A stretch of DNA of 32,375 nucleotides from Anaerolinea thermolimosa (GTDB taxonomy: Bacteria > Chloroflexota > Anaerolineae > Anaerolineales > Anaerolineaceae). Shown here piece by piece: positions 17,746 through 32,375 of the stretch (position 1 is the stretch's first letter; every line of letters begins with the position of its first letter). The position numbers and the translations under genes were made by a program. The stretch covers positions 2,842,331-2,874,705 of the forward strand of contig NZ_DF967965.1 of assembly GCF_001050195.2 (NCBI RefSeq), written 5' to 3'. The notes under the pieces were generated by a model, which saw only the letters and a program-made list of their open reading frames with translations, did not search any database and was not told the DNA's origin.

Positions 17746-18216
17746 AAAAATCATGGTTAATAGTGAGAATAATATTCTTTTTTAATTCTTATAGCGAGCA
17801 TCAGCTATACGCTGGTTCCAGCGTATAGCTGGTGTCAGTACCCTGCCAGCTTTTCAGGAAGAACTGTACAGGGATGCAAAGACGTTTTTACAGACACTGT
17901 AAATAACGTTAAAGTATGGAAAGGTTGGGCAGAGAGTAAAGTAATAAATGGAGCGGCACTTTCTCAGGTAGGAGAAGACATTTGGACAGATACACGTTAC
18001 TGTAACTATGTCGCGGTAGATAATTACAGTTATGGTGGAAAACTTCAGAGTAATACTACCCGCTGGGCGGCCAGCGGGGTTAATCATAACTCGTGTCCAT
18101 GTGCCGGGAGTGTGAATTATGGCGTTGTGTATGTAAAACATGCATACTCCGATGGGAGCACATGGTTTCGAGATGATTCCCGGCCTACAAATCAAAATAT
18201 ACAATCATGTCCTTAA
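17742..18216 (+). pseudogene. Small Cys-rich secreted protein gene with a one-base frameshift
   Basis: GTG at 17742 opens a signal peptide (MKKSWLIVRIIFF) that hits a TAG after 29 codons. If one T is removed from the T6 run at 17778-17783, the frame continues without a stop to TAA at 18214-18216, giving 157 residues: the signal peptide is completed by LILIASISYTLVPAYS, then a mature domain with six Cys (in WCQ, GCK, YCN, SCPC and QSCP) and many Trp, Tyr, Asn and Ser. The coherent signal peptide across the junction and the 4-base overlap with the upstream gene make a real gene likely. The break may be a mutation, phase variation or an assembly error. No homologue is recognised; paired Cys suggest disulphides outside the cytoplasm. 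Confidence 0.7.
17802..17831. repeat. 30-base palindrome, 14-base arms with TT loop
   Basis: CAGCTATACGCTGG (17802-17815) and its exact reverse complement (17818-17831) are separated only by TT. It lies 18 bases after the T6 run in the frameshifted gene, across the end of the predicted signal peptide. As RNA or single-stranded DNA it would form a very stable hairpin. Confidence 0.9.
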
Positions 18217-18271
18217 AATAGAAGACACAGGCCTGGTCAAATTGAGTATCATCTCTCTGATGATGGGTTGA

Positions 18272-18333
18272 AATAAATAGGGGTTTCCGTTCTCAAGTGA
18301 CCATACCCTACCTCTGGCGTCTGCCTATTTATT
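18272..18333. repeat. Inverted repeat between convergent genes
   Basis: AATAAATAGG (18272-18281) and CCTATTTATT (18324-18333) are perfect 10-base arms 42 bases apart, between the ends of the frameshifted gene and pheA. A smaller hairpin, ATCATC/GATGAT (18248-18264), precedes it. They may help end transcription from both sides, though neither is a classical intrinsic terminator. Confidence 0.4.
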
Positions 18334-18343
18334 GATCTCTGCC

Positions 18344-19159
18344 TCACCCTCTGAATCGCGGATACGAGCCCAGTACACGCAGGAAGGTGGCAAACTCTGC
18401 CAGGTTGGCCAGCGCGTTCTTCACCGGGGTTTCCTCGATAGAGCCAGCAAAGTCGATATAAAAAAGATACTCCCATGGTTTTCCGGCCAGCGGGCGCGAT
18501 TCGATCTTGGTCAGATCAATATCGCGTAGAGCAAACACACTCATCGCGCGATAAAGTGCACCGGGACGGTTATCCAGCGAGAAGACGATCGAGGTTTTCG
18601 CATCACTCCCCGGAGAGACCGGCTGGCGGCCAACGATTAAGAAGCGCGTAAAATTAGCCGGATTATCCTCAATAGCTTCGGCCAGCACCTCCATCTCGTA
18701 GATCTGTGCCGCGCGCCGCGCCGCGATGGCCGCCACGCTCCGCTCCCCGGCCTGCCGTACCAGGCGCACACTCCCGGCAGTATCGTAGGCAGGCTCCACC
18801 TTCACCCCCATACGTTTAAGCGTGCCCTCACACTGCGCCAGCGCCTGCGGATGGCTGGTTACCGTGCGAATCTCTTCCAGTCGCGTCCCGGGCAGACCGA
18901 TCAGACAATGCGAAACCCGCAAACTGTGCTCTCCCACCACCACCAGGTCGTGCTGTAAAAGCAGATCGTAGTTGCGGTGAATACTGCCAGCAAGTGAATT
19001 CTCAATCGGTAAAAATCCCAGGTCAGCCCTGCCATCAGCCACAGAGGCAAAGACCACCTCAAAGGACTCGCAGGGGATACTTTCGACCCCCTCGCCATAA
19101 TGCTCGATGATGGCCGCCTCTGAATAGGCCCCGTGTTCTCCCTGAAATGCTACACGCAT
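18344..19159 (-). CDS. pheA: Prephenate dehydratase
   Basis: 271 residues, a monofunctional enzyme without a chorismate mutase domain. The catalytic domain (about 1-178) begins MRVAFQGEHGAYSEAA and holds the conserved Thr-Arg-Phe (171-173, in NFTRFLIVG). A C-terminal ACT domain (about 188-268) has the ESRP motif used for phenylalanine feedback control. It converts prephenate to phenylpyruvate in the cytoplasm. It is the last gene of the long branched-chain operon, nine bases after ilvE; the aminotransferase upstream might also serve aromatic keto acids. Complete and in frame. Confidence 0.95.
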   Translation of the reverse strand: MRVAFQGEHGAYSEAAIIEHYGEGVESIPCESFEVVFASVADGRADLGFLPIENSLAGSIHRNYDLLLQHDLVVVGEHSLRVSHCLIGLPGTRLEEIRTVTSHPQALAQCEGTLKRMGVKVEPAYDTAGSVRLVRQAGERSVAAIAARRAAQIYEMEVLAEAIEDNPANFTRFLIVGRQPVSPGSDAKTSIVFSLDNRPGALYRAMSVFALRDIDLTKIESRPLAGKPWEYLFYIDFAGSIEETPVKNALANLAEFATFLRVLGSYPRFRG

Positions 19160-19168
19160 GGTTGCCTT

Positions 19169-20086
19169 TTATTCCACATAATCCAGCCACTCAGCCGAGC
19201 GAGGATGCCTCCCATGCACTACGGCATAAAAATCCTTCTGCAGGGCGCGGGTCACTGGCCCCATACTGCCACTGCCAATCACCCGAAAGTCAATCTCCGT
19301 CACCGGCACAACCTCAGCCGCCGTACCACAGACGAAGCATTCATCGGCAATGTAGAGATGATCGCGGCTGAGCTGAGTCTCGACCACCTCATACCCCAGG
19401 TCTCGCGCCAGCGTCATCAGGGCATCGCGGGTAATCCCTTCAAGCAATGCCCAGGTGCCCGGAGTGTAGATGACCCCTTTGCGCACAATGAACAGATTTT
19501 CACCGGTGCACTCAGCCACATATCCCTGAGGGTCGAGCATCACCGCCTCATCAAAGCCCAGCCGCACTGACTCGGTTTTGGCAAGGCTGCTGCTGGCGTA
19601 ATTCCCCGTTACCTTGGCTTTGGTCATCATCACATTGGGGTGGTGACGAGTAAAAGAGGCCACATGCATCCGCACCCCTTTTTCCAGGGCTTCCTCGCCG
19701 AGGTATGCTCCCCATTCCCAGGCTGCGATACCCACCCGAGCTTCGCCTGCATCGATGTTCATACTGCGCTGCGGGCTGTGGTGATAAATCAGCGGGCGAA
19801 TATAACACGCCTTGAACCCGTTGGCTTTCACCACCTCTTTACAGGCCTGACCCAATTGCTCTGCCGTATAGGGAAGATTGCGAAAACCCAGAATTTTGGC
19901 CGAATTAACCAGCCGCTCCATGTGTTCTTTCAGGCGGAAAATCGCCGGTCCGCGATCTGTCTCATAACAACGAATTCCCTCAAAGACACCCAACCCGTAA
20001 TGCAGGGCGGTATTGAGAAAGGGGACGGTAGCCTGTGCTTCATCCACAAGTTTTCCATCCATCCAGATAAGTGATGTGGGGGTCAT
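19169..20086 (-). CDS. ilvE: Branched-chain amino acid aminotransferase
   Basis: 305 residues, fold-type IV PLP aminotransferase. The PLP lysine is K158 in KAKVTGNYASS, and the ECTGENLFIV and GITRDALM segments of the class are present. It performs the last step for valine, leucine and isoleucine, moving an amino group from glutamate to the 2-keto acid. ATG at 20086 is preferred to the longer frame start at 20134 because GGAG lies 11 bases upstream and the protein then begins MTPTSLIWMDGKLV, the usual N-terminus. It lies 106 bases after leuB; a hairpin occupies the gap. Confidence 0.95.
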   Translation of the reverse strand: MTPTSLIWMDGKLVDEAQATVPFLNTALHYGLGVFEGIRCYETDRGPAIFRLKEHMERLVNSAKILGFRNLPYTAEQLGQACKEVVKANGFKACYIRPLIYHHSPQRSMNIDAGEARVGIAAWEWGAYLGEEALEKGVRMHVASFTRHHPNVMMTKAKVTGNYASSSLAKTESVRLGFDEAVMLDPQGYVAECTGENLFIVRKGVIYTPGTWALLEGITRDALMTLARDLGYEVVETQLSRDHLYIADECFVCGTAAEVVPVTEIDFRVIGSGSMGPVTRALQKDFYAVVHGRHPRSAEWLDYVE

Positions 20087-20121
20087 TGAAATTTCATCTC
20101 CATTTCTATGTAAGGTTACCC

Positions 20122-20158
20122 AAGGGCACTTCAAACCAGCAGGGTTGAAATGCCCCTT
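20122..20158 (-). repeat. Hairpin between leuB and ilvE
   Basis: AAGGGCACTTCAAA (20122-20135) and TTGAAATGCCCCTT (20145-20158) pair over about 13 bases with one bulge and a nine-base loop. No T-run follows on the minus strand, so it more likely stabilises or separates mRNA segments than terminates. A second small stem (CGCCTC/GAGGCG) straddles the leuB stop. Confidence 0.5.
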
Positions 20159-20192
20159 CCATGCTTTGTCTTTGGGGCCGCCTCAGAAGAGG

Positions 20193-21251
20193 TCAGAGGC
20201 GGCGTAAAATTTCCTCCGTCATCGCCTCGGTGCCCAGGCTTCCGCCCAGATCACGGGTGAGAGCGCCATCATCAAGGGCGCGCTCTACCGCCCGTTCCAC
20301 CGCCACGGCCTCAGCCTCCAGGCCGAGTGAATGCCGCAGCAACAGTGCTGCGCTGAGGATCGTGCCACAGGGATTGGCGATGCCCTGCCCGGCAATATCT
20401 GGCGCTGAACCATGGATGGGTTCATAAAGCCCCGGCCCCCCCGATCCCAGCGAAGCCGAAGGCAACAGCCCCATCGAGCCGACCAGCACAGCCGCCTCAT
20501 CAGTGAGAATATCTCCGAACATGTTCTCTGTGACCATCACATCGAACGCTGCCGGATTGGCCACCAGCCGCATAGCCGCCGTGTCCACCAGCACATGCTC
20601 CAGCGCCACATCTGGGAAGCGTTGAGAAACTTCCACTGTTACCTGGCGCCAGAGACGCGAGGATTCGAGTACGTTGGCCTTGTCAACCGAGGCAAGCTTC
20701 TTCCTGCGAGACTGCGCCAGCCTGAACGCCAGCTCCACTATGCGTTCAATTTCACCCTCGGTATATTCCAGCGTATCCACCGCGCGCCGCTTCCCATCGA
20801 CCAGTGAACGCCCCTTAGGCTGACCAAAATAGAGCCCGCCGGTCAGTTCCCGCACCACAACCAGATCCACCCCTGCCAGTTTTTCGGGGCGCAGAGGTGA
20901 GGCAGAGACCAGTCTGGGGTGCACCTTCACCGGACGCAGGTTCGCAAAGACTCCCAATCCCTTGCGCAGGGCCAGCAACCCCTGTTCTGGCCGCACCGGG
21001 GCTGTAGGGTCATCCCACTTCGGGCCGCCAACTGCCCCCAGCAGTACGGCATCGGCCTGCTGGCAGGCTTTCAGTGTTTCGTCGGTGAGCGCTGTTCCAC
21101 AGGCGTCAATCGCACACCCGCCAATGAGATGCTGGCTGAAATGAAAGGTGTGTCCACCCCGGCGAGCCACGGCTTCTAACACGCGCACCGCTGCACTCAC
21201 CACCTCAGGCCCAATACCATCTCCGGGTAACAATACGATGTTTGCTTCCAT
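20193..21251 (-). CDS. leuB: 3-Isopropylmalate dehydrogenase
   Basis: 352 residues. The N-terminus [17 protein letters not shown], the substrate region [16 protein letters not shown], and the C-terminal MLLxS-like [34 protein letters not shown] with its NAD-binding signature are all intact. It oxidises and decarboxylates 3-isopropylmalate to 2-ketoisocaproate; in this operon it probably also acts on the methylmalate made through citramalate. The ATG at 21251 is preceded by AGGAG at six bases; a TTG five codons upstream is less likely. It lies 11 bases after cimA. Confidence 0.96.
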
Positions 21252-21262
21252 GAATACTCCTG

Positions 21263-22819
21263 TCAATCTCCCATGAGGATGCCATACTCAATCGAATCGG
21301 CCAGAGCGCGCCAGGAAGCCTCAATGATATTCGTGCTCGCTCCCACCGTGCTCCATGTTTTATTGCCGTTGTGGGTTTCGATCAATACCCGCGTGGTTGA
21401 GCTGGTGCCCCGGTCACCGTCCAGAATCCGAACCTTGTAATCTTCCAGGTGGAAATGCGCAATGGAAGGATAGAAGGGCAGCAATGCTTTGCGTAAGGCG
21501 GCGTCCAGCGCATTGACGGGGCCGTTCCCGTCAGCTGCGGTGTGGATGATCTCTCCATTGACCCGCACCTTGACCGTCGCTTCGGCAAAAATACCCCTCC
21601 CCTGACGGTGCTCCACATTGGCTGTGAAATCCACCAGCTCAAACGGTGCACAGTAGTCCTTCTGCTGACGCTTGAGCATGAGCAGAACCGAGGCCTCTGC
21701 CGCTTCGAAAGAGAAGCCCCTGGCCTCAAGCGCTTTCAACTCGTTCAACACAGCCGTGATGTCGGCATCCTCGTCCAGAACAAGCCCGTATTCTTCGGCT
21801 TTACTGAGGAGATTGCCGCGCCCCGAAAGCTCCGAAACCACCACGCGCATCTGGTTTCCAACCAGTGCCGGGTCGATATGCTGGTAAGAAGACGCCGTGC
21901 GCCGGATGGCCGCCACATGAATTCCTCCTTTGTGAGCGAATGCCGCCTTACCCACATACGCCAGGTGCTCATCTGGAGAAAGGTTGGCCATCTCAGCCAC
22001 ATAATGGGAAAGCTCGGTCAGGCGCGCCAGACTGCCCTCAGGGAGAGCTTTGAGGCCCATTTTAAGCTCCAGATTTGGGATGATCGAGCATAGATTGGCA
22101 TTTCCACAGCGCTCCCCATACCCGTTAATCGTCCCCTGAACCTGAATGCACCCCTCCTGCACTGCTATCAACGAATTGGCCACGGCGCACTCAGCATCAT
22201 TATGAGCATGAATCCCCAGCTGAGCTTCAGGAAAGCGCGCCCGTACTGCACGGACGATCTCGGCCACTTCCCAGGGCATGGTGCCGCCATTGGTATCGCA
22301 GAGCACCAGCGTTTCGGCGCCACCGCGCGCGGCCGCCGCCAGCGTCTGCAGAGCATATTCCGCATCTTCCTTGTACCCATCGAAGAAGTGTTCGGCGTCA
22401 TAAATAACCGCCCGTCCCTGCTGACCCAGATAGGCCACCGACTCTTCGATCATCCGCAGGTTGTTTTCGCGGGTCGTGCGCAGTACCTCACGCACATGTA
22501 AAACCGAGCTTTTACCCACCACTGCACAGTGGCTGGTACGGGCATCGATCAGGGCGCGAATATTGGCATCCTCATCGGGTTTCTTGTTCGCCGCGCAGGT
22601 GGCCCCGAAAGCCACGATGCGGGCATTCTGCCAGTGCATCCCGGCGGCACGCTCAAAAAATTCGGCATCTTTGGGGTTAGACCCCGGCCAGCCGCCTTCA
22701 ATAAAGGTCACGCCCAATTCATCGAGCCGTCGGGCGATCTGAATCTTGTCATTACACGAAAGAGAAATATCCGTGCGCTGCGTGCCATCGCGTAAAGTTG
22801 TGTCGTATACCTGGATCAT
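21263..22819 (-). CDS. cimA: (R)-Citramalate synthase
   Basis: 518 residues of the 2-isopropylmalate/citramalate synthase superfamily. The N-terminus has [27 protein letters not shown] (41-51), [10 protein letters not shown] (141-150) and metal ligands HAH (204-206), features that distinguish CimA from LeuA. A LeuA-type regulatory domain occupies the C-terminus (about 375-518). It condenses pyruvate with acetyl-CoA, opening the pyruvate route to isoleucine that bypasses threonine deaminase. It lies between leuD and leuB, consistent with shared use of LeuBCD. No ilvA is present in the window. Homocitrate synthase is the main alternative but fits less well. Confidence 0.93.
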
Positions 22820-22870
22820 AGCACCCTCTTAAAACAACGCTAATCAAAAATCGCCAACCCTCCCAACTGT

Positions 22871-23470
22871 TTAACTCGCAGTGGCAGGGTGTTGCGCCTC
22901 GTACCGGCGGATGTGCTCTTCCAGACCCAGTAAATACCCCAGCTCGTCTACCCCGTTGAGTAAACAGGTCTTCGAAAAGGGGTCGATCGGGAAGGCCACC
23001 GCTTCTCCATCTGGCAGAACCAGGTGTTGCGCGGCCAGGTCAATCGTTACGTGTGCTTCCGGGTTGGCTTTCAATTGCTCCATCAGCCTGCGATGCACCG
23101 CTGCATCCACAATCACCGGGAGCAGGCCGTTTTTAAGGGCATTGTTCCGGAAAATATCGGCAAATGTGGTAGAAATGACCGCCCGAAACCCCCAGCCCAT
23201 TAACGCCCAGGGAGCGTGCTCACGGGAGGAACCACAACCAAAGTTGTCACCCGCCAGCAACACCTTTGCGCCCTGATTCTCAGGCTGGTTGAGGACAAAA
23301 TCCGGGTTGGGCGATCCATCAGGAAGGTAACGCCAGTCGGCGAAAAGATTGGCGCCCAGCCCTGCTTTATCGGTGGTCTTCAGAAAACGCGCCGGGATGA
23401 TCTGATCGGTATCAATATTATCAACCGGCAGAACAACCACACGCGAGGAGATTGTGGTGAATTTTTCCAT
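22871..23470 (-). CDS. leuD: 3-Isopropylmalate dehydratase small subunit
   Basis: 199 residues, the bacterial-type small subunit. [17 protein letters not shown] (18-34) and [17 protein letters not shown] (about 74-90) are the family signatures. With LeuC it forms the heterodimer that isomerises 2- to 3-isopropylmalate through isopropylmaleate; it probably also handles citramalate here. It follows leuC after 71 bases that contain a terminator-like hairpin, which may set the LeuC:LeuD message ratio. SD AAGG lies about nine bases before the ATG. Confidence 0.96.
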
Positions 23471-23499
23471 AGAATACCTTCTACCTGAAAAGAAACAAA

Positions 23500-23534
23500 G
23501 GACGCGACCCCCGTACCTTTCGGTGTTCGCGTCC
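23500..23534 (-). terminator. Terminator-like hairpin between leuC and leuD
   Basis: On the minus strand GGACGCGA (23534-23527) pairs perfectly with TCGCGTCC (23507-23500), followed by the T-rich TTTGTTTCTTTT. Inside the loop ACC-GAAA-GGT makes a second small stem with a GNRA tetraloop. It sits seven bases after the leuC stop and would cause partial termination or protect the mRNA end. Confidence 0.6.
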
Positions 23535-23541
23535 TCCAGAA

Positions 23542-24966
23542 TTAGAGGATGGTGCGCGGGTCAGTGACCCTCCCGGTAAGGGCGGAAGCGGCGGCAGTGA
23601 GCGGGCTGGCCAGAAAAGTGCGTCCGCCTTTTCCCTGTCTTCCCTCGAAGTTCCGGTTGCTGGTGCTGATGGCATACTGCCCTGGCTCAAGTTGATCTCC
23701 ATTCATGGCGATACACATCGAGCACCCCGGCTCGCGCCACTCGGCTCCGGCCTCTTTGAAAATGCGATCCAACCCCTCTGCCTCAGCCGCACGTTTGATG
23801 TGCTGTGAGCCGGGCACCACCAGCACCCGCAGGCCATCGGCCACCTTACGCCCGCGCAGAACCGCCGCGGCGGTGCGTAGATCATTCAACCGTCCATTGG
23901 TGCACGAACCAATAAAAACCACATCCACTTTATGGCCGGTTAAAACGCCGCCCGGGGCTAATCCCATGTAGGCCAGTGCCTTCTCAAGCGCGGCTTTCTG
24001 CGCCGGATCAGTCATGGCCTCAGGCGAAGGGATGCGCCCGGTAATGGGAATGCCCATCCCGGGATTCGTACCAAAAGTCACCATGGGCTCCAGAGCCGAG
24101 GCATCCAGGGTGACCACCTTATCGTAGACGGCCCCCTCATCGCTCGGCAGGCGGCGCCATTCAGCCACGGCTTTCTCCCAGGCCTCGCCTTTGGGGGCAT
24201 ACTCGCGCCCCGCCAGGAACTGGAAGGTGGTTTCGTCCGGGGCGATCATCCCGGCCCGGGCTCCCGCTTCAATCGACATGTTGCAGATGGTCATGCGCTC
24301 TTCCATGCTCAGGGATCGGATCGCCTCGCCGGTGTATTCCAGCACATACCCTGTTCCGCCAGCCGTGCCGATCTTCGCAATGAGCGCCAGAATGATATCT
24401 TTGGCCGTCACCCCTCTGGCCAGCCGACCTTCCACACGTACCTCGCAGGTCTTCGGGCGATGTTGTAAAAGGCACTGGGTAGCCAGCACATGCTCCACTT
24501 CACTGGTGCCAATACCAAAGGCCAGAGCACCAAAAGCGCCGTGCGTGGCGGTGTGGCTGTCACCACACACAATGGTCATCCCCGGTTGGGTAAGGCCAAG
24601 TTCTGGCCCGATGATATGGACAATCCCCTGGTGAGGGCTATCCAGCCCCATGAGGGGGATACCAAACTCGCGGCAATTGGCCTCCAGCTGGCGAATTTGC
24701 CGGTAGCTCATTTCATCCGCGAAGGCCATCCGCCCCTCAGGGGTGCCATCGGTGGAGCGTGTCGGCACACCATGATCCATGGTGGCCACCGTACGTTCAG
24801 GGCGGCGTACTTTCAGGCCGCGTGCACGCAACCCGGTAAACGCCTGGGGTGAGGTCACCTCGTGAACGAGGTGCAGGTCAATGTACAGCACAGCCGGCGC
24901 GCCTGGCTCCTCAACGACGACGTGCTTTTCCCAGATCTTATCGAACAGCGTTTTTGGAGTTGTCAT
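23542..24966 (-). CDS. leuC: 3-Isopropylmalate dehydratase large subunit
   Basis: 474 residues, bacterial-type LeuC of the aconitase family. The 4Fe-4S ligands are C354 ([10 protein letters not shown]), C415 and C418 (PGCSMC). The N-terminus [14 protein letters not shown] and the [29 protein letters not shown] region are canonical. It is the catalytic subunit working with LeuD. No good SD precedes its ATG, but the gene overlaps the end of the 70-codon orf70 by 29 bases, so its translation is probably coupled to that reading frame. Confidence 0.97.
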
Positions 24967-25150
24967 AGGGCGCCGAGAACGTAGGGTTGGTTTGATTGAA
25001 TGCCGTGCCGTTCATCTCTGCCGGGTCATGCTCGTGTCCAGAGATCCAGTCCGTCACATCCCAGGCTGAGGGGATGGTGCGCGGTTCGCGGAAGGGTTCA
25101 GGGTGTCCCTCTCGCATCGGGTCAACCATTTGATTCTTCTGGGGGTTCAT
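24938..25150 (-). CDS. Uncharacterised 70-residue protein (orf70) in the leu operon
   Basis: A small frame between leuA and leuC beginning [26 protein letters not shown] stands seven bases before the ATG, a strong SD. The product is polar and acidic, rich in Pro, Asn, Asp and Glu, with no Cys and no hydrophobic segment; it is probably soluble and partly disordered. It overlaps leuC, which has no SD of its own, so one role may be to deliver ribosomes to leuC. A longer frame upstream (to 25216) overlaps leuA and is not preferred. No family was recognised. The strong SD and coupling argue it is translated; function is unknown. Confidence 0.6.
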
Positions 25151-25208
25151 TTGTCTTCTCCTTTGGCTCAAAATTTCCAGACGGTTACCGCACCCTGCGG
25201 TAAAAAAA

Positions 25209-26831
25209 TCATGCACTGACCATGTGCGTGGCTACCTGTTCAGCCGGGCCATAACGACCAGTAGCCACCAGCAATTTATTGAGCGCCGCCAGATACGCTT
25301 TGGCACTGGCCACCACAATATCTGTATCGGCACCATAACCGCCAAAAGTGCGCGGCTGATCCACTTCACGCTGGGCATCAAGGGTGGAATGGCTATCCTG
25401 CCCCTGAATGCGCACGGTTACCTCGCCCAGGGCATCAATCCCTTCGGTAACTGCGTGGACCACAAATTCCTGAAGCACATTTTCAGCCTGCACAATCGCA
25501 TCGATGGCCTTATAGGCGGCATCCACCGGACCGGTGCCCACCGCCGCATGGACGTGAAGCCGTCCCTGAGGATCACGCAGGCGCACCGTGGCAGTGGGCA
25601 TGCCCATGGTGCCGCAGGCCACCTGAAGGCCATCCAGCGAAAACAGTTCACGCGGCTGGTACAGTTCATCCGAAATGAGCGCCTCCAGGTCAGCATCCGT
25701 GATGACCTTCTTCCGGTCAGCCAGCGACTTGAAACGCTCAAACACCTGATCCAGCTCATCTTCACCCAGGTCGTACCCCAGGGAAGCCAGACGCATCTTC
25801 AACGCATGGCGCCCGGAATGCTTGCCCAGCACCAGGCGTGTTTGAGAAGCACCCACCGACTCGGGGCGCATGATCTCATACGTGAGTTGATTCTTGAGCA
25901 ACCCATCCTGATGAATACCCGCCTCATGCGCAAAGGCATTGGCGCCCACAATGGCCTTATTCGGCTGAACACTGATGCCGGTATAGTTGCTCACCAGTTT
26001 GCTGATGCGTGTGATCTGCGTGGTATCAATGCCGGTCGAAAGGTTAAAGACCGGTCTGCGGGTGTGCAAAGCCATGACCACTTCTTCGAGAGCCGTATTG
26101 CCAGCCCGCTCGCCGATACCATTGACAGTCACCTCGGCCTGTCTGGCTCCCGCCGCCAGCCCGGCCAGAGTATTGGCCGTGGCCAATCCGAGATCATTAT
26201 GACAGTGAACCGAGACGATGCAATTTTCGATGCCGGGGGTATGGCGGATAATCCCGGCAATCAAGGCCCCGAACTCCTCGGGCAGGGTGTAACCCACCGT
26301 ATCGGGAATATTGAGGGTGGTCGCCCCGGCTTCGATCGCCACACCAAGGACTTCATAAAGGAATTCCGGATCGCTCCTCCCCGCATCCTCGGGGCTGAAC
26401 TCCACATCTTCACACAGGCTACGGGCATAAGAGACCATCTCGCGCACCCGTTCCACCACCTGTTCGCGCGTCATGCGGAGCTTGTACTGCATGTGGATTT
26501 CAGACGTGGCCAGGAAGGTATGAATACGGGGGTGTGCCGCCGGTTGCACTGCCTGCCAGGCTTTGTCAATATCATTGCGAGTGGCGCGTGCCAGCCCACA
26601 GATGATGGGGGCTCTTCCGCCATCCGCAGGGTTACCCACCTCCACGGCAATACGGCGCACGGCCTCCAGATCATCGGGCGATGCCGCCGGAAAACCCGCC
26701 TCGATCACATCCACCCCCAGGCGCGCCAGAGCACGGGCTACCTCCAGCTTCTCTGCGCTGGTCATGGTTGCCCCCGGCGACTGTTCGCCATCGCGCAAGG
26801 TGGTGTCGAAAATCCGTACATAAGAGTCCAT
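25209..26831 (-). CDS. leuA: 2-Isopropylmalate synthase
   Basis: 540 residues. The TIM-barrel domain opens with [12 protein letters not shown] (9-20) and has metal ligands H209 and H211 ([10 protein letters not shown]); NGIGERAGN and the C-terminal LeuA dimer regulatory domain (about 395-540) follow. It condenses 2-ketoisovalerate with acetyl-CoA, the committed leucine step, usually inhibited by leucine through the C-terminal domain. ATG at 26831 has GGGAG at a good distance; the longer frame start (26948) would run into ilvC. It lies 62 bases after ilvC and 58 before orf70. Confidence 0.96.
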
Positions 26832-26893
26832 ACTTCTTACTCCCTTTTCCTTCCCTTCACAGGCATCCTCCCTGTGCGGAGGAGACGGAAAGG

Positions 26894-27946
26894 TCACTTC
26901 TTCCAGTTCTCCGGGCGCAGGGCGCGCACCTGAGCTCCTGCCCGCCACAGCTCCGACTCGCGCATTTCACGCAGCTCGGCTTCCAGCTTCTCTTTGTAAT
27001 CTGGCGCGCTGTTGGCTTCGAGGACGATACGCGTTTCTTCCCCGGAGGCCACGCTTTCATACAGACGTTCGAAAACCGGCAATGTGGCTTTGCGGAACTC
27101 GTGCCGCCAGTCCAGTGCACCGCGCTGGGCCGTGGTTGAACAGTTGGCATACATCCAGTCCATGCCGTTCTGCGCCACCAGGCGGATCAGGCTCTGGGTC
27201 AATTCTTCAACGGTTTCATTGAAAGCCTCTGAGGGTGTATGCCCGTGCTCGCGCAGCACCTGATACTGTGCCTCCATGATCCCCGCCAGAGCGCCCATCA
27301 AAACACCGCGTTCACCCGTCAGGTCGCTGAAGACTTCGTGTTCAAAGGTCGTCTCGAAAAGGTACCCCGAGCCGATGGCAATGCCCAGCGCCAGGGTGCG
27401 CTCGCGGGCCCGGCCGGTGTAATCCTGAAAGACCGCAAAGCTGGAGTTAATCCCGCTCCCCGCCAGAAAGTTGGCGCGCACGCTGGTTCCAGAACCTTTG
27501 GGGGCTACCAGCACCACATCCACATATTCCGGAGGGATGACCCCCGTCTGGTCTTTGTAAACCACCGAGAACCCGTGCGAGAAATAAAGCGCATCTCCCG
27601 GTTTGAGGCATTCCACCACCCGATCCCAGGTGAGCTTCTGGGCGGCGTCTGATACAAGGTACTGAACCACCGTGCCACGCAGGGCGGCTTCTTCGATGGA
27701 GAAAAGGGTTTCACCCGGCACCCAGCCATCTTCCAGCGCTTTCTGCCAGGAACGACCGCCGGGGTTGACCCCCACGATCACTTTGATGCCGTTGTCGCGC
27801 ATGTTGAGGGCCTGGGCCGGCCCCTGCACACCGTATCCCAGCACTGCCACCACTTCATCTTTGAGCACCTCACGGGCTTTTTCCAGTGGGAACTCTTCAC
27901 GCGTCACTACTTCTTCCAGCGTACCTGCAAAATCCATTTTGGCCAT
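26894..27946 (-). CDS. ilvC: Ketol-acid reductoisomerase, fungal-like class I
   Basis: 350 residues. The Rossmann motif is GYGVQG (37-42); the knotted C-terminal domain contains [10 protein letters not shown] and a single knot-domain set, so it is class I. Several stretches ([56 protein letters not shown], and an RPEN ending) resemble the fungal mitochondrial Ilv5 type more than E. coli or common bacterial enzymes. It isomerises and reduces acetolactate or acetohydroxybutyrate using NAD(P)H and Mg. It lies between ilvN and leuA. The protein is slightly longer than usual short class I enzymes because of an N-terminal extension. Confidence 0.95.
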
Positions 27947-27991
27947 AAAACTGTCTTCTCCTTGGGCAATGATGAAACCTGACTGAAAAAA

Positions 27992-28531
27992 TTACGAGGC
28001 ATAATGAGCGGCATGAACGCCGTTGCCGTTGCCGTTTCCATTCACGTACAGAGGAGCACCTCCACGCGCCATCGCCACCACACCGGTGCGTACCATTTCA
28101 ATAATGCCGAGGGGGCGAAGCACCTCCACAAACCCTTCAATTTTTTCCTCATCACCGGTGATTTCAATGATGAAGGAAGTATTGGTCACATCCACAATGC
28201 GCGCACGGAACACATCCACCGTTTGCATGATGTGGGTGCGGTTTTCAGGTGTGGCGCTTACCTTGATCATCGCCAGGTCGCGGGTTACCCGCGGCACGTG
28301 CGTCAGATCCTCTACCTGAATCACATTGACCAGCTTGTACAGGTAAGCAATCAACCGTTCGATGGAGACATCGTCACTGTCGACCACAATCGTCATGCGC
28401 GAAACGCCGGGCTGCTCGGTGTGCCCAACAGTCAACGATTCAATATTGAACGCACGGCGTCGAAACAGCGAGGCCACGCGGTTCAACACACCGGGTTTAT
28501 CTTCCACTAAAGCCACAATCGTATGGTTCAT
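27992..28531 (-). CDS. ilvN: Acetolactate synthase small (regulatory) subunit
   Basis: 179 residues. An N-terminal ACT domain (ALVEDKPGVLNRVASLFRRR, 7-26, NIESLTVG) binds valine for feedback inhibition, and a C-terminal ALS_ss_C domain (about 83-160) follows. It binds and activates the large subunit encoded 45 bases upstream. The last 17 residues are an added Asn-Gly repeat tail, encoded by a short hexanucleotide repeat (28019-28042), that is not part of the family core. Confidence 0.96.
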   Translation of the reverse strand: MNHTIVALVEDKPGVLNRVASLFRRRAFNIESLTVGHTEQPGVSRMTIVVDSDDVSIERLIAYLYKLVNVIQVEDLTHVPRVTRDLAMIKVSATPENRTHIMQTVDVFRARIVDVTNTSFIIEITGDEEKIEGFVEVLRPLGIIEMVRTGVVAMARGGAPLYVNGNGNGNGVHAAHYAS

Positions 28532-28576
28532 TTTCTTTCTTCCTTCCTCTCCCTGAGGGGCATCCCGGGTTCGAGT

Positions 28577-30295
28577 TTAAATTTCGTCCTGGGCCGTTTC
28601 CACGATACGGTTAGGCACCGGGCGGCGAATCATGTTATGCAGATCGGCTCCGGTAGGTACCATGGGGTACACGCTGTCTTCCTGCTCAACCCTGAAGTCA
28701 ATCACCACCGTACCCTCGGTGCGACCGGCACGTTGAATGGCAGGGATCACCTCTTCCCGCGTGGTCACGCGCAGGCCGGTCAGCCCGTGCGCCTCGGCAA
28801 TCTTGACAAAATCGGGGCTGCGCATGGGGGTGGCCGCATAACGCCTTTCGTAGAAGAACTCCTGCCACTGGCGCACCATACCCAGAAAACCATTATTGAT
28901 GATGGCCACATTCACCTTGACGTTCTCCTGAGCGGCGGTAGAAAGCTCAGCCTGAGTCATCTGGAACCCACCATCGCCCACAATCGTCCAGACCTCCTGG
29001 TCGGGCCGGGCAATTTTTGCCCCAATGGCTGAAGGAAGCCCAAAGCCCATCGTTCCCAGGCCTCCAGAGGTAATCCACATGTGGGGATGATCTTGCTTGA
29101 AGTACTGCGCCGACCACATCTGATGCTGTCCAACATCGGTGGTAACCAGCACGTTCCCGCCGGTGGTACGCCACAGATCATGGATCACATGCGCCGCATA
29201 GAGATGCCCATCCGGGGGCAGGTTTTGCACATCCCGCACGGCGCTATCTCCCTTCATTTCGGTAATGTGCGCCAGCCAGTCGGTATGTTCCTGCGGCTCC
29301 AGATGCTCCAGAATCTGCCGCAGGGTATCGCGCAAATCACCCACCAGCCCCAGATCAACCTTGATGTTCTTGTTAATCTCCGCCGGGTCAATATCGATAT
29401 GGATCTTTCGGGCATTCCGTGCATAAGTATTGACATTCCCGGTCACCCGGTCATCGAAGCGCATTCCAAAAGCCAGCAGTAAATCGGCTTCCTGAATGGC
29501 ATGATTTACCCATGCCTCACCGTGCATGCCCATCATCCCAAGGTTGAGGGGATGGGTCGCCGGGAAACACCCGATTCCAAGCAAAGTCATCGCCACCGGA
29601 ATATTGGCACGTTCGGCAAACTCACGCAGTTCGCTCATCGCATTACTGAGCAGTACACCCTGCCCTGCCAGAATCAGAGGACGTTTGGCAGCCGCAATCA
29701 TCTCCAGCGCCTGCTGGATTTGCCGCGTTCCAGGCCGTAAATCGGGGCGGTAGCCGCGCATCTTGATTGGCCCCCCATTGTATTCCCACTCGATCGCATT
29801 CTGCTGGGCGTCTTTGGCAATATCTACCAGCACCGGCCCGGGGCGCCCGGTTCGCGCAATATAGAAAGCCTCGCGCAGGGTGGGGCCAATCTCTTCTGTC
29901 CGCGTCACCAGGTAATTGTGCTTGGTGATCGGCAGGGTAATGCCCGTAACATCCGTCTCCTGAAAAGCATCAAAACCGATGAACCGGCTGGCCACCTGCC
30001 CGGTGATGAACACCACCGGAGACGAGTCCATCATGGCGGTCGCAATTCCAGTCACCAGGTTGGTTGCCCCCGGGCCTGAAGTAGCCATGGCCACCCCCAC
30101 CCTGCCGCTGGCACGTGCGTAGCCGTCAGCCATGTGCGCCGCGCCCTGCTCATGGCGCGTCAACACGTGGCGCACGGGGTAGTCGAGCATGGCGTCGTAG
30201 ATAGGTAAATTCGCCCCCCCGGGGTAGCCAAAGACTACCTCCACCCCCTCGCGCACCAGTGTTTCCCAGAGAATCTGTGCACCCGTAAGTTTCAT
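28577..30295 (-). CDS. ilvB: Acetolactate synthase large subunit
   Basis: 572 residues, a ThDP enzyme. The N-terminus GYPGGANLPIYDAM and catalytic E49 (RHEQGAAHMADGYARA) are intact, as is the ThDP/Mg motif beginning GDG at about 440 and ending NNG near 467. It makes acetolactate or acetohydroxybutyrate, the first common step to the branched-chain amino acids. ATG at 30295 follows GGAGGAG and gives the normal N-terminus; an in-frame extension up to 30391 would run into ilvD. It is the second gene of the operon after ilvD. Confidence 0.96.
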   Translation of the reverse strand: MKLTGAQILWETLVREGVEVVFGYPGGANLPIYDAMLDYPVRHVLTRHEQGAAHMADGYARASGRVGVAMATSGPGATNLVTGIATAMMDSSPVVFITGQVASRFIGFDAFQETDVTGITLPITKHNYLVTRTEEIGPTLREAFYIARTGRPGPVLVDIAKDAQQNAIEWEYNGGPIKMRGYRPDLRPGTRQIQQALEMIAAAKRPLILAGQGVLLSNAMSELREFAERANIPVAMTLLGIGCFPATHPLNLGMMGMHGEAWVNHAIQEADLLLAFGMRFDDRVTGNVNTYARNARKIHIDIDPAEINKNIKVDLGLVGDLRDTLRQILEHLEPQEHTDWLAHITEMKGDSAVRDVQNLPPDGHLYAAHVIHDLWRTTGGNVLVTTDVGQHQMWSAQYFKQDHPHMWITSGGLGTMGFGLPSAIGAKIARPDQEVWTIVGDGGFQMTQAELSTAAQENVKVNVAIINNGFLGMVRQWQEFFYERRYAATPMRSPDFVKIAEAHGLTGLRVTTREEVIPAIQRAGRTEGTVVIDFRVEQEDSVYPMVPTGADLHNMIRRPVPNRIVETAQDEI

Positions 30296-30316
30296 TGTCT
30301 GTCTCCTCCATTGGCG

Positions 30317-30343
30317 AAAAACGAACTCAACCGCTTCGGTTCG
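30317..30343 (-). repeat. Hairpin with T-run between ilvD and ilvB
   Basis: On the minus strand CGAAC/GTTCG (30343-30339, 30326-30322) or, alternatively, AACCG/CGGTT (30341-30329) form stems followed by TTTTT (30321-30317). Weak, short stems; possible partial attenuation only. Confidence 0.3.
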
Positions 30344-30359
30344 GTTGGTAACCACACAA

Positions 30360-32030
30360 TCAAATCTTGAGCACCGCTCCCGTATCCGCACTGGTCACGA
30401 ACTGCGCGTAACGGCGCAACCACTTGCTGGTCGTGCGTGGCTGGAAGGGCGGCAGTGCCGCCAGCCGGCGTTGAATCTCTTCATCCGAAAGGCGCACCTG
30501 AAGGATTTGCGCATCCAGGTCAATCTCCACAATATCTCCGGGTTGCAGGGCGGCAATCGGCCCACCGGCAGCCGCTTCTGGTGAGACGTGCCCGATGCAC
30601 GCTCCGCGCGTCCCCCCGGAAAACCGGCCATCAGTGATCAAAGCCACCTTCTCGCCCAGCCCCAGCCCCATAATGGCACTGGTAGGGCTGAGCATCTCCT
30701 GCATCCCTGGCCCACCCCGCGGTCCTTCGTAGCGGATCACCACCACTTCACCCGGCTGAACCTCATGCGCCAGGATTCCACGCAGGGCATCCTCCTGAGA
30801 CTCATAAATCCGCGCCGGCCCGCTGAACTGGCGCATCGACGGGGCCACCCCGCCCGTCTTCACCACCGCGCCGTTGGGGGCCAGGTTCCCAAAGAGCACT
30901 GCCAGACCTCCATGAGCCGAGTGGGCATTTTCACACCGGCGAATCACCGCCTCATCCCGGATTTCCGCCCCCTCCAGGGACTCACCCAGGGGCCTGCCCG
31001 TCACTGTAAGGCGCTCCAGGTGCAACATACCCGTTCCGCGCTGCACCTCTTTGAGAATGGCCGGGATGCCCCCCGCCCGATGAACATCTTCCATGTGCCA
31101 CTGCCCCGAGGGGCTCACCTTGCACAGGTGCGGCACGCGCTGAGAAACCGCATTGATGCGTTGCAATGAATAATCGACTCCCGCTTCATGGGCAATTGCC
31201 AGGCCATGCAGAATGGTATTGGTCGAACCACCCATGGCCATATCCAGTGCAAAAGCATCATCCAGGGCTTCGGCCGTGACAATGTCTCGCGGGCGAATAT
31301 CCCGCTCAATCAGCTCCAGAATCAGCCTGCCTGCCCGGCGCGCCAGCTCTTCCCGCTCAGGGGTACGCGCGAGCGCTGAGCCGTTGTAGGGCAACGCCAG
31401 CCCCAGCGCTTCCATCAGGCAGTTCATGCTGTTCGCTGTGAACATGCCGGAACAGGAACCGCATGACGGACAGGCGAAATCCTCCAGCACTTTCAACCGA
31501 CGCTGATCAATTTTTCCGGCCTGAAAGGCCCCCACCCCCTCAAACACCGAAATCAGGTCGATGGTTTCACCCTCAGGAGTCCGTCCGGCAGCCATGGGCC
31601 CCCCTGAGACAAAAATGGCCGGGATGTTGACCCTCATGGCAGCCATGAGCATTCCCGGCACAATTTTGTCGCAGTTAGGGATACACACCATCCCGTCAAA
31701 ACAGTGCGCCTCCAGCATGGTCTCGATAGAGTCGCAGATTAATTCACGGGATGGCAGAGAATATTTCATTCCGGCGTGCCCCATGGCAATGCCATCGTCC
31801 ACCGCGATGGTATTGAACTCAAAGGGCACGCCGCCGGCCTCGCGCACCGCCTGCTTGACAAGCCGGCCAAATTCCTGCAAATGAACATGCCCGGGGACGA
31901 TATCAACATACGAATTCACCACCGCGATGAACGGTTTATCCAGGTCGGCATCGCTCACCACGCCGGTAGCTTTGAGAAGCGCGCGGTGGGGGGCATGTTC
32001 AATTCCTCGCTTGATCTGATCGGATCTCAT
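30360..32030 (-). CDS. ilvD: Dihydroxy-acid dehydratase
   Basis: 556 residues. Cluster and metal features of the family are present: C120 in PNCDK, the [18 protein letters not shown] region (187-204), K89 in [10 protein letters not shown] (the usual carbamylated lysine) and DDGIAMGH. It dehydrates dihydroxyisovalerate and dihydroxymethylvalerate to their keto acids with an Fe-S cluster. It is the first structural gene of the operon, 30 bases after the attenuator terminator, and its start ATG at 32030 follows GGAG at about 12 bases. Confidence 0.96.
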
Positions 32031-32060
32031 ACCGGCAAATGCTCCGTTGGTTGAAGGTTA

Positions 32061-32090
32061 TAAAAAAACCGCCCTGTTGGGCGGTTTTTT
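32061..32090 (-). terminator. Intrinsic terminator (attenuator) before ilvD
   Basis: On the minus strand AAAAAACCGCCC (32090-32079), loop AACA, GGGCGGTTTTTT, then a further T: a 12-base perfect stem with a run of seven T. It lies between the leader peptide and ilvD, so it must be overcome for operon expression. Read on the plus strand it could equally stop transcription entering from the left. Confidence 0.88.
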
Positions 32091-32149
32091 CTGCTTAGGT
32101 TTACTCTGAAACTTCTTACGCGTTCACTTCGCATCTTCTGGCCGCCCAA
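32077..32149 (-). promoter_or_regulatory. Candidate antiterminator pairing
   Basis: TTGGGCGG (32149-32142), encoded inside the leader peptide just after its Leu/Ile/Val run, is exactly complementary to CCGCCCAA (32084-32077), the 5' arm and loop of the terminator. This 8-base helix would prevent the terminator stem. An upstream hairpin GGTTCTC/GAGAACC (32179-32160) lies in the leader codons and could compete. Confidence 0.6.
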
Positions 32150-32220
32150 ACCGGAAAAAGGTTCTCAATTACGAGAACCCCAATAAGGACCAGAATGAAA
32201 AGGGCGAGACCGAAAGACAT
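32116..32220 (-). CDS. Leu/Ile/Val-rich leader peptide of the ilv-leu operon
   Basis: 34 codons from ATG 32220 to TAA 32116. Of residues 5-18, eleven are Leu, Ile or Val (5, 7, 9-13 and 15-18), with further Leu21 and Val24. It begins about 27 bases after the expected transcription start and is followed by an antiterminator element and a strong terminator, the layout of ilv leader peptides in Proteobacteria and Actinobacteria. Ribosome stalling at uncharged Leu, Ile or Val tRNAs would leave the antiterminator free. The SD (GGAAAG) is modest. A single-helix membrane protein would have a similar composition; position and RNA elements favour the leader role. Confidence 0.72.
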   Translation of the reverse strand: MSFGLALFILVLIGVLVIENLFPVWAARRCEVNA

Positions 32221-32253
32221 AGGGGAAACTTTCCAGAATTTTTAGTTCCCTTT

Positions 32254-32281
32254 ATTGTACAACGCTTTATGAAAAAGTCAA
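32254..32281 (-). promoter_or_regulatory. Promoter of the ilv-leu operon
   Basis: Minus-strand TTGACT (32281-32276), a 16-base spacer, TACAAT (32259-32254); start expected near 32247. One mismatch in each box. It is the only strong promoter seen ahead of the eleven recognised biosynthetic genes and orf70. Confidence 0.75.
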
Positions 32282-32297
32282 TAGGTTTTGCTGAAAT

Positions 32298-32375
32298 TCA
32301 GACATAAGTTAGGACAGTGGGGCGAACGATAGCAGCAAACGACGCCAAAGCCTCCTTGACAATGGACTGCCACTG
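32298..32375 (-). CDS. 3' end of an upstream gene (partial, uncertain)
   Basis: A minus-strand frame open from the right edge, ending TGA at 32298, encodes 25 residues (beginning QWQSIVKEALASF, ending VLTYV). It reads like a protein C-terminus, but is too short to assign. It ends 17 bases before the -35 box of the ilv promoter. Confidence 0.3.
   Translation of the reverse strand, partial: QWQSIVKEALASFAAIVRPTVLTYV

Follow-up and report, generated by a model that had tools for sequence, protein, structure and literature searches.

The question raised by this locus is whether the short reading frame and the terminator ahead of ilvD in Anaerolinea thermolimosa form a ribosome-mediated attenuator, a type of control that is textbook knowledge for Proteobacteria and is also known from Actinobacteria and from some Firmicutes (PMC2965389 and PMC1262725). 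A survey of leader genes counts Chloroflexi among the groups for which genomes were too scarce for a verdict (PMC4833913), and PMC9413887 mentions Chloroflexi once. The open-access literature searched, a scope that leaves most subscription journals and the 2010 survey by Lopatovskaya and colleagues outside, yields no account of ribosome-mediated attenuation in Chloroflexota. Analysis of the window, that is, the whole stretch of 32,375 nucleotides, and of its relatives indicates that the element is very probably a ribosome-mediated transcription attenuator of the ilv/leu type that governs read-through into the gene run from ilvD to pheA.

Parts of the leader region

The leader region is encoded on the minus strand and comprises the following parts:

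32254..32281, minus strand: promoter, with the -35 box TTGACT (32281-32276), a 16-nt spacer and the -10 box TACAAT (32259-32254), 10/12 matches
32116..32220, minus strand: leader peptide ORF of 34 codons, MSFGLALFILVLIGVLVIENLFPVWAARRCEVNA, with the stop codon at 32118-32116
32136..32195, minus strand: protector hairpin (strands 1 and 2), the control-codon region paired with the stretch that contains the antiterminator strand
32195-32190 with 32141-32136, minus strand: outer pairs of the protector in the computed fold, TTCTGG with CCAGAA
32160..32179, minus strand: inner hairpin P1 at the tip of the protector, GGTTCTC-gtaatt-GAGAACC, inside the leader ORF
32142..32149, minus strand: antiterminator strand TTGGGCGG, part of strand 2, exact complement of CCGCCC and the adjacent AA of the terminator loop
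32063..32090, minus strand: intrinsic terminator (strands 3 and 4), AAAAAACCGCCC-AACA-GGGCGGTTTTTT
32084-32079, 32078-32075 and 32074-32069, minus strand: terminator core, CCGCCC, loop and GGGCGG, with flanking A/T pairs
32062..32068, minus strand: U run of the terminator, seven T

A sequence-only reading of this DNA had claimed the promoter, the 34-codon leader with eleven Leu, Ile or Val among residues 5-18, the eight-base antiterminator complementary to the 5' arm and loop of the terminator, and the terminator with seven T followed by ilvD (from 32030); each is confirmed at the positions above. The protector hairpin had been overlooked. Of the 444 ORFs in the window that encode 20-60 aa, this leader alone reaches 11 or more Leu, Ile or Val in 14 residues, as do none of 13,378 ORFs from Markov-1 resamplings or 12,262 ORFs from shuffles. 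The 186-nt leader RNA folds with -65 kcal/mol (z -3.78; 1 of 200 shuffles is equally good), and P1 may act as a pause hairpin for RNA polymerase. The minus-strand terminator is omitted by the standard promoter and terminator scan, probably because the U tract is counted into the stem; it is detected by a separate, purpose-made scan.

Transcription is expected to start around 32247. Taken alone, the promoter match in the window is weak evidence, given that one promoter-like site is found against 0.4 expected in the 476 bases of 31900-32375; its support comes from recurrence before the leaders of relatives, where a promoter-like pair with at least 10/12 matches lies upstream of 30 of the 49 leaders with enough upstream sequence (mean 9.9 versus 7.8 in shuffled sequence). 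Across 18000-32375, four promoter-like sites are found against 6.4 expected, all on the minus strand, and the site before the leader has the top score. Shine-Dalgarno-like motifs are present in only 10 of 49 leaders, that of the window not being one of them, so that efficient translation of the leader is not obvious. Short predicted 5' UTRs combined with scarce Shine-Dalgarno motifs are odd for a switch that depends on prompt translation.

The final 85 bases of the window (32291-32375), which adjoin a run of N, are identical, in inverted orientation, to one end of an element that is situated about 4 kb away and contains a DDE transposase ORF (PF01609). The -35 box thus seems to have the end of a mobile element as its neighbor, at a distance of about 10 bases upstream.

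The operon downstream of the leader

The leader is followed by a run of eleven genes on the same strand, which can be assigned through matches to TIGR or NF families:

30360..32030, minus strand: ilvD, dihydroxy-acid dehydratase, first gene of the operon, start at 32030 (TIGR00110)
28577..30391, minus strand: ilvB, acetolactate synthase large subunit (TIGR00118 from residue 35; Shine-Dalgarno sequence and ATG visible)
27992..28531, minus strand: ilvN, acetolactate synthase small subunit (TIGR00119)
26894..27946, minus strand: ilvC, ketol-acid reductoisomerase (TIGR00465)
25209..26948, minus strand: leuA, 2-isopropylmalate synthase (TIGR00973)
23542..24966, minus strand: leuC (TIGR00170)
22871..23470, minus strand: leuD (TIGR00171)
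21263..22819, minus strand: cimA, citramalate synthase (TIGR00977)
20193..21266, minus strand: leuB (TIGR00169)
19169..20134, minus strand: ilvE, branched-chain transaminase (TIGR01122)
18344..19159, minus strand: pheA-like gene for prephenate dehydratase, last of the run (NF008865)

The ilv-leu operon postulated from the letters alone is thereby substantiated, and the element sits before genes for synthesis of the amino acids that it would sense. The true start of ilvB probably lies inside the listed ORF. The only sizeable gap in the run, 242 bases, separates leuA from leuC; between these two genes lies a 70-aa ORF (24938-25150, minus strand) that has a Shine-Dalgarno sequence and overlaps the listed leuC start. 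A single transcript across all eleven genes is likely; it is not assured, because weak terminator-like hairpins are present at 30347-30328 (minus strand), between ilvD and the likely ilvB start, and at 23514-23495, near the leuC-leuD junction. Terminator-like sites in 18000-32375 number eight, against 11.8 expected.

Conservation of the element in relatives

Of 151 genomes, 72, among them that of the window, have a match to ilvD. Together with named contigs, the matching genomes supplied 75 loci, in 54 of which a leader ORF and a terminator could be parsed; these yield 56 units, including that of the window (L024 and L044 contribute two each). The units are thus selected for having a leader and a terminator, and the leader starts are partly hand-set (at an ATG within the script-called frame in L005, L019, L021, L032, L044a and L114). 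Several loci were dropped although some parts are present in them: L031, whose leader is truncated; L116, which lacks a terminator under the rule used; L126 and L127, with overlong leader frames; and L134, which duplicates L044. L148 and L151 were dropped for lack of upstream sequence. No convincing leader is seen in L039, L040, L045, L133, L136, L137, L138, L142, L144-L147, L149 and L150.

The 56 units can be aligned over their length (alignment A1); the aligned members include Chloroflexi bacterium bin_128 (L044), from the family of the window, and Anaerolineae bacterium co234_bin11 (L035). Leu, Ile and Val account for 71.5% of residues 4-20 in the 56 leaders. The stop codon lies between the antiterminator and the terminator in all 56 units, at 6-55 nt from the former and 20-43 nt from the latter, the 55-nt extreme coming from L129, whose antiterminator call is doubtful. 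As expected of an attenuator of the ilv/leu type, an intrinsic terminator precedes the first gene, the antiterminator strand is exclusive with the terminator, and the protector strand overlaps the control codons. Tandem attenuators, that is, two leaders each with its own terminator, are present in L024 (1916-2253) and L044 (1666-1980), and two leader-like frames lie ahead of ilvD in L231 (~300-600).

Codon usage in the leaders is distinct from that in the genes. Over the first 22 codons of the 56 leaders, compared with 35 ilvD genes, CTT and CTC make up 66% versus 24% of the Leu codons, ATT makes up 78% versus 34% of the Ile codons, and GTC and GTT make up 82% versus 47% of the Val codons. This bias may reflect tuning of sensitivity via the charging of isoacceptors, for which a case has been made in E. 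coli leaders (PMC1183508), or the need for a pyrimidine-rich strand 1.

Small ORFs of 32-85 aa with no assigned function directly follow the attenuator in L022, L025, L030, L031 and L033, in L122 and L132, and in L202 and L204. Three or more sequence types can be distinguished among them (with DAMFDAYNG-like ends; AGMPS-like; DPEWRYYHGAWGG). The single one compared with Pfam, from L202, has no match. In E. coli, ilvX occupies the equivalent position.

Covariation and strand swaps

Shuffling of the 56-unit alignment reveals covariation in both alternative structures. For P1 together with the antiterminator helix, 80.8% of the alignment cells are paired (73.6% in shuffles), 80 cells carry two-sided changes (30.7 in shuffles) and the covariation score is 0.292 (versus 0.178), values that none of the 500 shuffles attains; 12 pairs show two-sided changes against 9.0 expected (7/500). 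For P1 together with the terminator, the corresponding figures are 90.5% versus 80.6%, 108 versus 36.1, 0.393 versus 0.210, and 13 pairs versus 9.0, each with 0/500 shuffles. Two-sided changes affect 6 of the 7 pairs in P1 and 7 of the 8 in the terminator, and every measure of covariation drops when the partner is shifted by 1-3 columns. In leaders with GTTGGG(A)TGG, the fixed columns put the antiterminator one base out of place, so that the value of 78.4% for the antiterminator helix is probably an underestimate.

Relatedness among the sequences inflates such shuffle tests; therefore, strands were also swapped between units and the duplex energies computed. True combinations are more stable than swapped ones for the antiterminator core with the terminator arm and loop (-17.8 versus -13.1 kcal/mol), for the leader upstream of P1 with the segment from P1 to the stop codon (-24.9 versus -18.3 kcal/mol), for the upstream leader with the antiterminator core (-13.0 versus -10.4) and for the upstream leader with the segment between the antiterminator and the stop codon (-13.4 versus -11.6), in each case with 0 of 5000 swaps reaching the true value; a variant with the entire 3' part of the leader yields -18.7 versus -13.7 (0/5000). 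The two control combinations, the upstream leader with the terminator arm (1860/5000) and the segment after the antiterminator with the terminator arm (4017/5000), give no signal. A fixed-column swap of the P1 arms, over 34 distinct arm pairs, reaches the true value 3 times in 10,000. Examples of matched strands are TTTGGG/CCCAAA, TTCGGG/CCCGAA, CTTGGG/CCCAAG, GGGCAG/CTGCCC and GAGGCGG/CCGCCTC.

The variable bases next to the terminator arm are often located in the loop and are explained by the antiterminator, not by the terminator: loop bases, which are dispensable for termination, track the antiterminator strand. P1 alone was considered as the protector and dropped, P1 having no overlap with the antiterminator in most units and the swap test identifying the upstream leader as the partner strand. 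Attenuation through a leader peptide, as proposed from the sequence alone, is supported by the comparison with relatives that the same reading had suggested as a check: the short frame and the control codons are retained, and so are the stems, in which compensatory changes affect both the terminator and the antiterminator.

Folding states and the proposed mechanism

Each unit was folded with a ribosome placed on it and with transcription halted before strand 4; these are equilibrium folds of fragments and do not represent kinetics. With the ribosome stalled at codons 8, 11, 14 and 17, the antiterminator forms with at least 5 pairs in 54, 55, 55 and 55 of the 56 units, respectively. Without a ribosome, the protector forms with at least 10 pairs in 42 of 56 units and the antiterminator in 18, the window not being among the latter. 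With the ribosome at the stop codon, the antiterminator count is 0 by construction if pairing across the ribosome is disallowed; if it is allowed, the antiterminator forms in 30 of 56 units, again not including the window, and the protector in 22. In the window itself, stalling at the four codons gives 9, 9, 6 and 9 antiterminator pairs, and both the free RNA and the RNA with a ribosome at the stop codon have 17 protector pairs and 0 antiterminator pairs. When strand 4 is included, the minimum-energy fold of the full-length leader contains the terminator in 56 of 56 free units and still in 43, 43, 39 and 36 of 56 stalled ones, so that antitermination must be kinetic, set by the order of synthesis.

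The mechanism that these states suggest presupposes that the leader is translated and that amino acid supply determines stalling. With ample charged tRNA for Leu, Ile and Val, or in the absence of a ribosome, the protector (1:2) would sequester the antiterminator strand, strands 3 and 4 would make the terminator, and transcription would end before ilvD. A ribosome stalled at the Leu, Ile or Val codons would cover strand 1 and free TTGGGCGG, which could then pair with CCGCCCAA as it emerges, ahead of the synthesis of GGGCGG, such that no terminator would form.

Alternative explanations

The leader could encode a genuine small hydrophobic membrane protein, with the hairpins incidental, as might be expected from its hydrophobic core and from motifs such as ENxxPVWA that loosely recur in close relatives. 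The pattern of conservation argues strongly against a conserved peptide, whose detection in relatives would have spoken against the sequence-only reading. The motif was located in 48 of 56 leaders and unlocated in 8; in the 48, the GGG of the antiterminator falls into frame 0 in 24 leaders, frame 1 in 22 and frame 2 in 2 (the frame-0 call in L121 refers to a wrong place), and because all three frames are used, it is the RNA rather than the peptide that appears to be conserved. Furthermore, L016 has one base fewer before the antiterminator and, with it, a different C-terminus; Leu, Ile and Val are interchangeable between relatives; the C-terminus past the antiterminator varies; and the residues that follow the control codons (EN, ES, KD and ED) change together with the hairpin partner, the partner arm reading GTTCTC, GCTCTC, GTCCTT and GTCCTC, respectively. 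The probability of the membrane protein explanation is accordingly close to nil. A ligand-binding riboswitch, a T-box or a ppGpp riboswitch acting on the terminator, with the ORF as a by-product, is also very improbable, even though such RNAs regulate ilv genes elsewhere (PMC10272879) and a T-box adjoins the element of one relative (L211): the conserved bases are located in the control codons and the alternative strands, no Rfam family reaches the gathering score in the window or in 13 relatives, no T-box model matches the window, and the single Rfam match in 20 further loci, the T-box of L211, lies upstream of the element, not within it.

Another variant keeps the same parts and assigns the termination state mainly to a ribosome at the stop codon instead of the protector hairpin. 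It is compatible with the invariant placement of the stop codon in the 56 units and with the 18 units whose antiterminator strand is unsequestered in the free RNA; against it, the swap test supports the pairing of the protector strands, and a ribosome at the stop codon does not keep the protector of the window from forming. This variant is unlikely, and the evidence is best compatible with an attenuator in which the protector hairpin provides the termination state.

Distribution and downstream genes

The aligned units were used to build a search model, R1. The genome of the window contains a single strong match (E 1e-21, by construction, as the model was trained on it), the next being at 0.1. 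Within a sample of 396 genomes from the class, 229 have a match, 10 of which trained the model, and the remaining 167 of 396 (stricter filters) show no R1 match; among class genomes with completeness of 90% or more and contamination of 5% or less, 147 of 234 match. In a draw from the phylum, 67 of 400 genomes match, 40 within the class and 27 outside it. The E-values are rough, and a few matches at 0.002-0.01 are doubtful, e.g., that in G534, which covers the terminator end only.

The genes behind the element were examined in 40 loci, which were not drawn at random but picked as second copies, as lying outside the class or for variety. Genes for branched-chain synthesis or transport follow the element in 32 of the 40. 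The first gene with a match to any of the window's eleven proteins is ilvB in 17 loci, ilvD in 7, leuC in 2 and ilvE in 3; a branched-chain ABC transporter follows in 2 loci, and in L221, ilvC and leuA lie behind a distant ilvB-like match. The other eight loci (L202, L204, L206, L212, L214, L215, L227 and L228) are not tied to branched-chain genes. Of these, the L206 match is probably false, and L214 has an aminotransferase first, with leuC farther along. In L227 and L228, the element is followed by a conserved protein of ~138 aa, of unknown function and without a Pfam match.

The two transporter loci, L205 and L225, come from one family, from the genomes G014 (97% complete) and G063 (95%), where the element precedes a periplasmic binding protein (PF13458); in G063, the one genome tested for it, a permease of the branched-chain type (PF02653) is encoded as well. 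The leaders, MTKFIGIMVIIFIMWVLYYLYYGKAPVLGWENNG in G063 and MTTSFGYMVIIIIMWVLYYFYYGKAPVFGWDNNGKR in G014, are rich in Ile, Val and Tyr. Neither genome has an IlvB match; for IlvD, G014 is listed without a match and G063 is absent from the 72 matching genomes. These observations, from two genomes of one genus, suggest that the switch moved to import upon loss of synthesis.

Beyond the phylum, six ilvD loci (L036, L038, L041, L043, L046 and L049) have short upstream frames rich in Leu, Ile and Val; among them, only L049 (E 0.012) matches R1 at the leader and on the right strand in a search of 30 loci. The same search yields an unexplained R1 match in L109 (E 0.0059).

The element represents a new, lineage-wide family, lacking an Rfam match, of a known kind of attenuator, its predicted function being that of its kind. 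A more far-reaching proposal, which we regard as tentative and somewhat less probable than its negation, is that Chloroflexota possess a regulon of branched-chain attenuators that spans the phylum. It would share its dimensions with the enteric one and be either equally old or of independent origin, with short and mostly Shine-Dalgarno-free 5' UTRs, located before ilvD, ilvB, leuC or ilvE depending on the lineage, in tandem in some, and moved to the branched-chain amino acid importer in sister lineages that lost synthesis. A covariation-backed family found in more than half of the sampled class genomes implies that transcription and translation are closely coupled in this class. The R1 model is ready for use in annotation, and the single, tandem and transporter-moved forms provide a natural series for studies of attenuator evolution.

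Comparison with known systems

In Rfam, Leu_leader (RF00512) scores 23.3 of 50 bits on the strand of the element, over 32061-32117 only and below the gathering score, and Phe_leader scores 25.9 of 55 bits on the same strand, likewise without reaching the gathering score. A relaxed Rfam search of the window returned only sub-threshold leader and sRNA matches, which were rejected as chance or shared terminators. In L211, the T-box (RF00230, 101 bits) occupies positions 2-209, directly upstream of the element (~300-470) and before ilvB; these are apparently two different switches in series.

Among the systems described outside Proteobacteria, the Corynebacterium ilvBNC leader and the ilvB-II motif resemble the window in having a branched-chain leader ORF, a terminator and an antiterminator (PMC10272879 and PMC11857589). 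The published antiterminator joins the terminator to the P1 loop (PMC10272879), whereas in the window the antiterminator strand comes after P1, which itself belongs to the protector. The ilvB-OMG motif, found before ilvB in various phyla, is also similar in that it includes a short ORF rich in branched-chain codons (PMC10272879); in a library that may lack ilvB-OMG itself, no leader or ilv family reached the gathering score in 34 sources (the window, 13 relatives and 20 further loci), apart from the T-box beside the element of L211.

In a search of 19 kb, R1 aligns end to end, from the start codons, with the E. coli leaders leuL (22.6 bits, E 0.0005) and ilvL (18.5 bits, E 0.003). These matches are only suggestive, because a 62-base stretch of L109, not known as a leader, scored 21.8 bits in the same search. 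They would be compatible both with common descent of the enteric and Chloroflexota leaders and with convergence.

The geometry of the element resembles that of the enteric leaders. The sequence-only reading had cautioned that the stop codon, put at about 25 bases past the antiterminator strand, departs from the textbook arrangement. This caveat falls, because the distance, 23 nt in the window, is 23 nt in ilvL, as measured by the same script, and 25 nt in leuL, and because the protector hairpin supplies a termination state. The caveat suits the trp leader, in which the stop codon is positioned elsewhere, but this arrangement is the usual one in ilv and leu leaders. The distance from the stop codon to the terminator is 31 nt in the window versus 24 nt in both ilvL and leuL; leuL has the same order of parts as the window, and in both E. 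coli leaders the antiterminator strand is, in the free state, largely held by the upstream leader. The window and ilvL belong to different phyla, have no sequence similarity indicating common descent and differ in that ilvD is the first gene in the window. Nevertheless, the two leaders are of nearly the same length (34 and 32 codons, respectively), and in both the control codons lie within the protector hairpin and the antiterminator strand lies inside the ORF.
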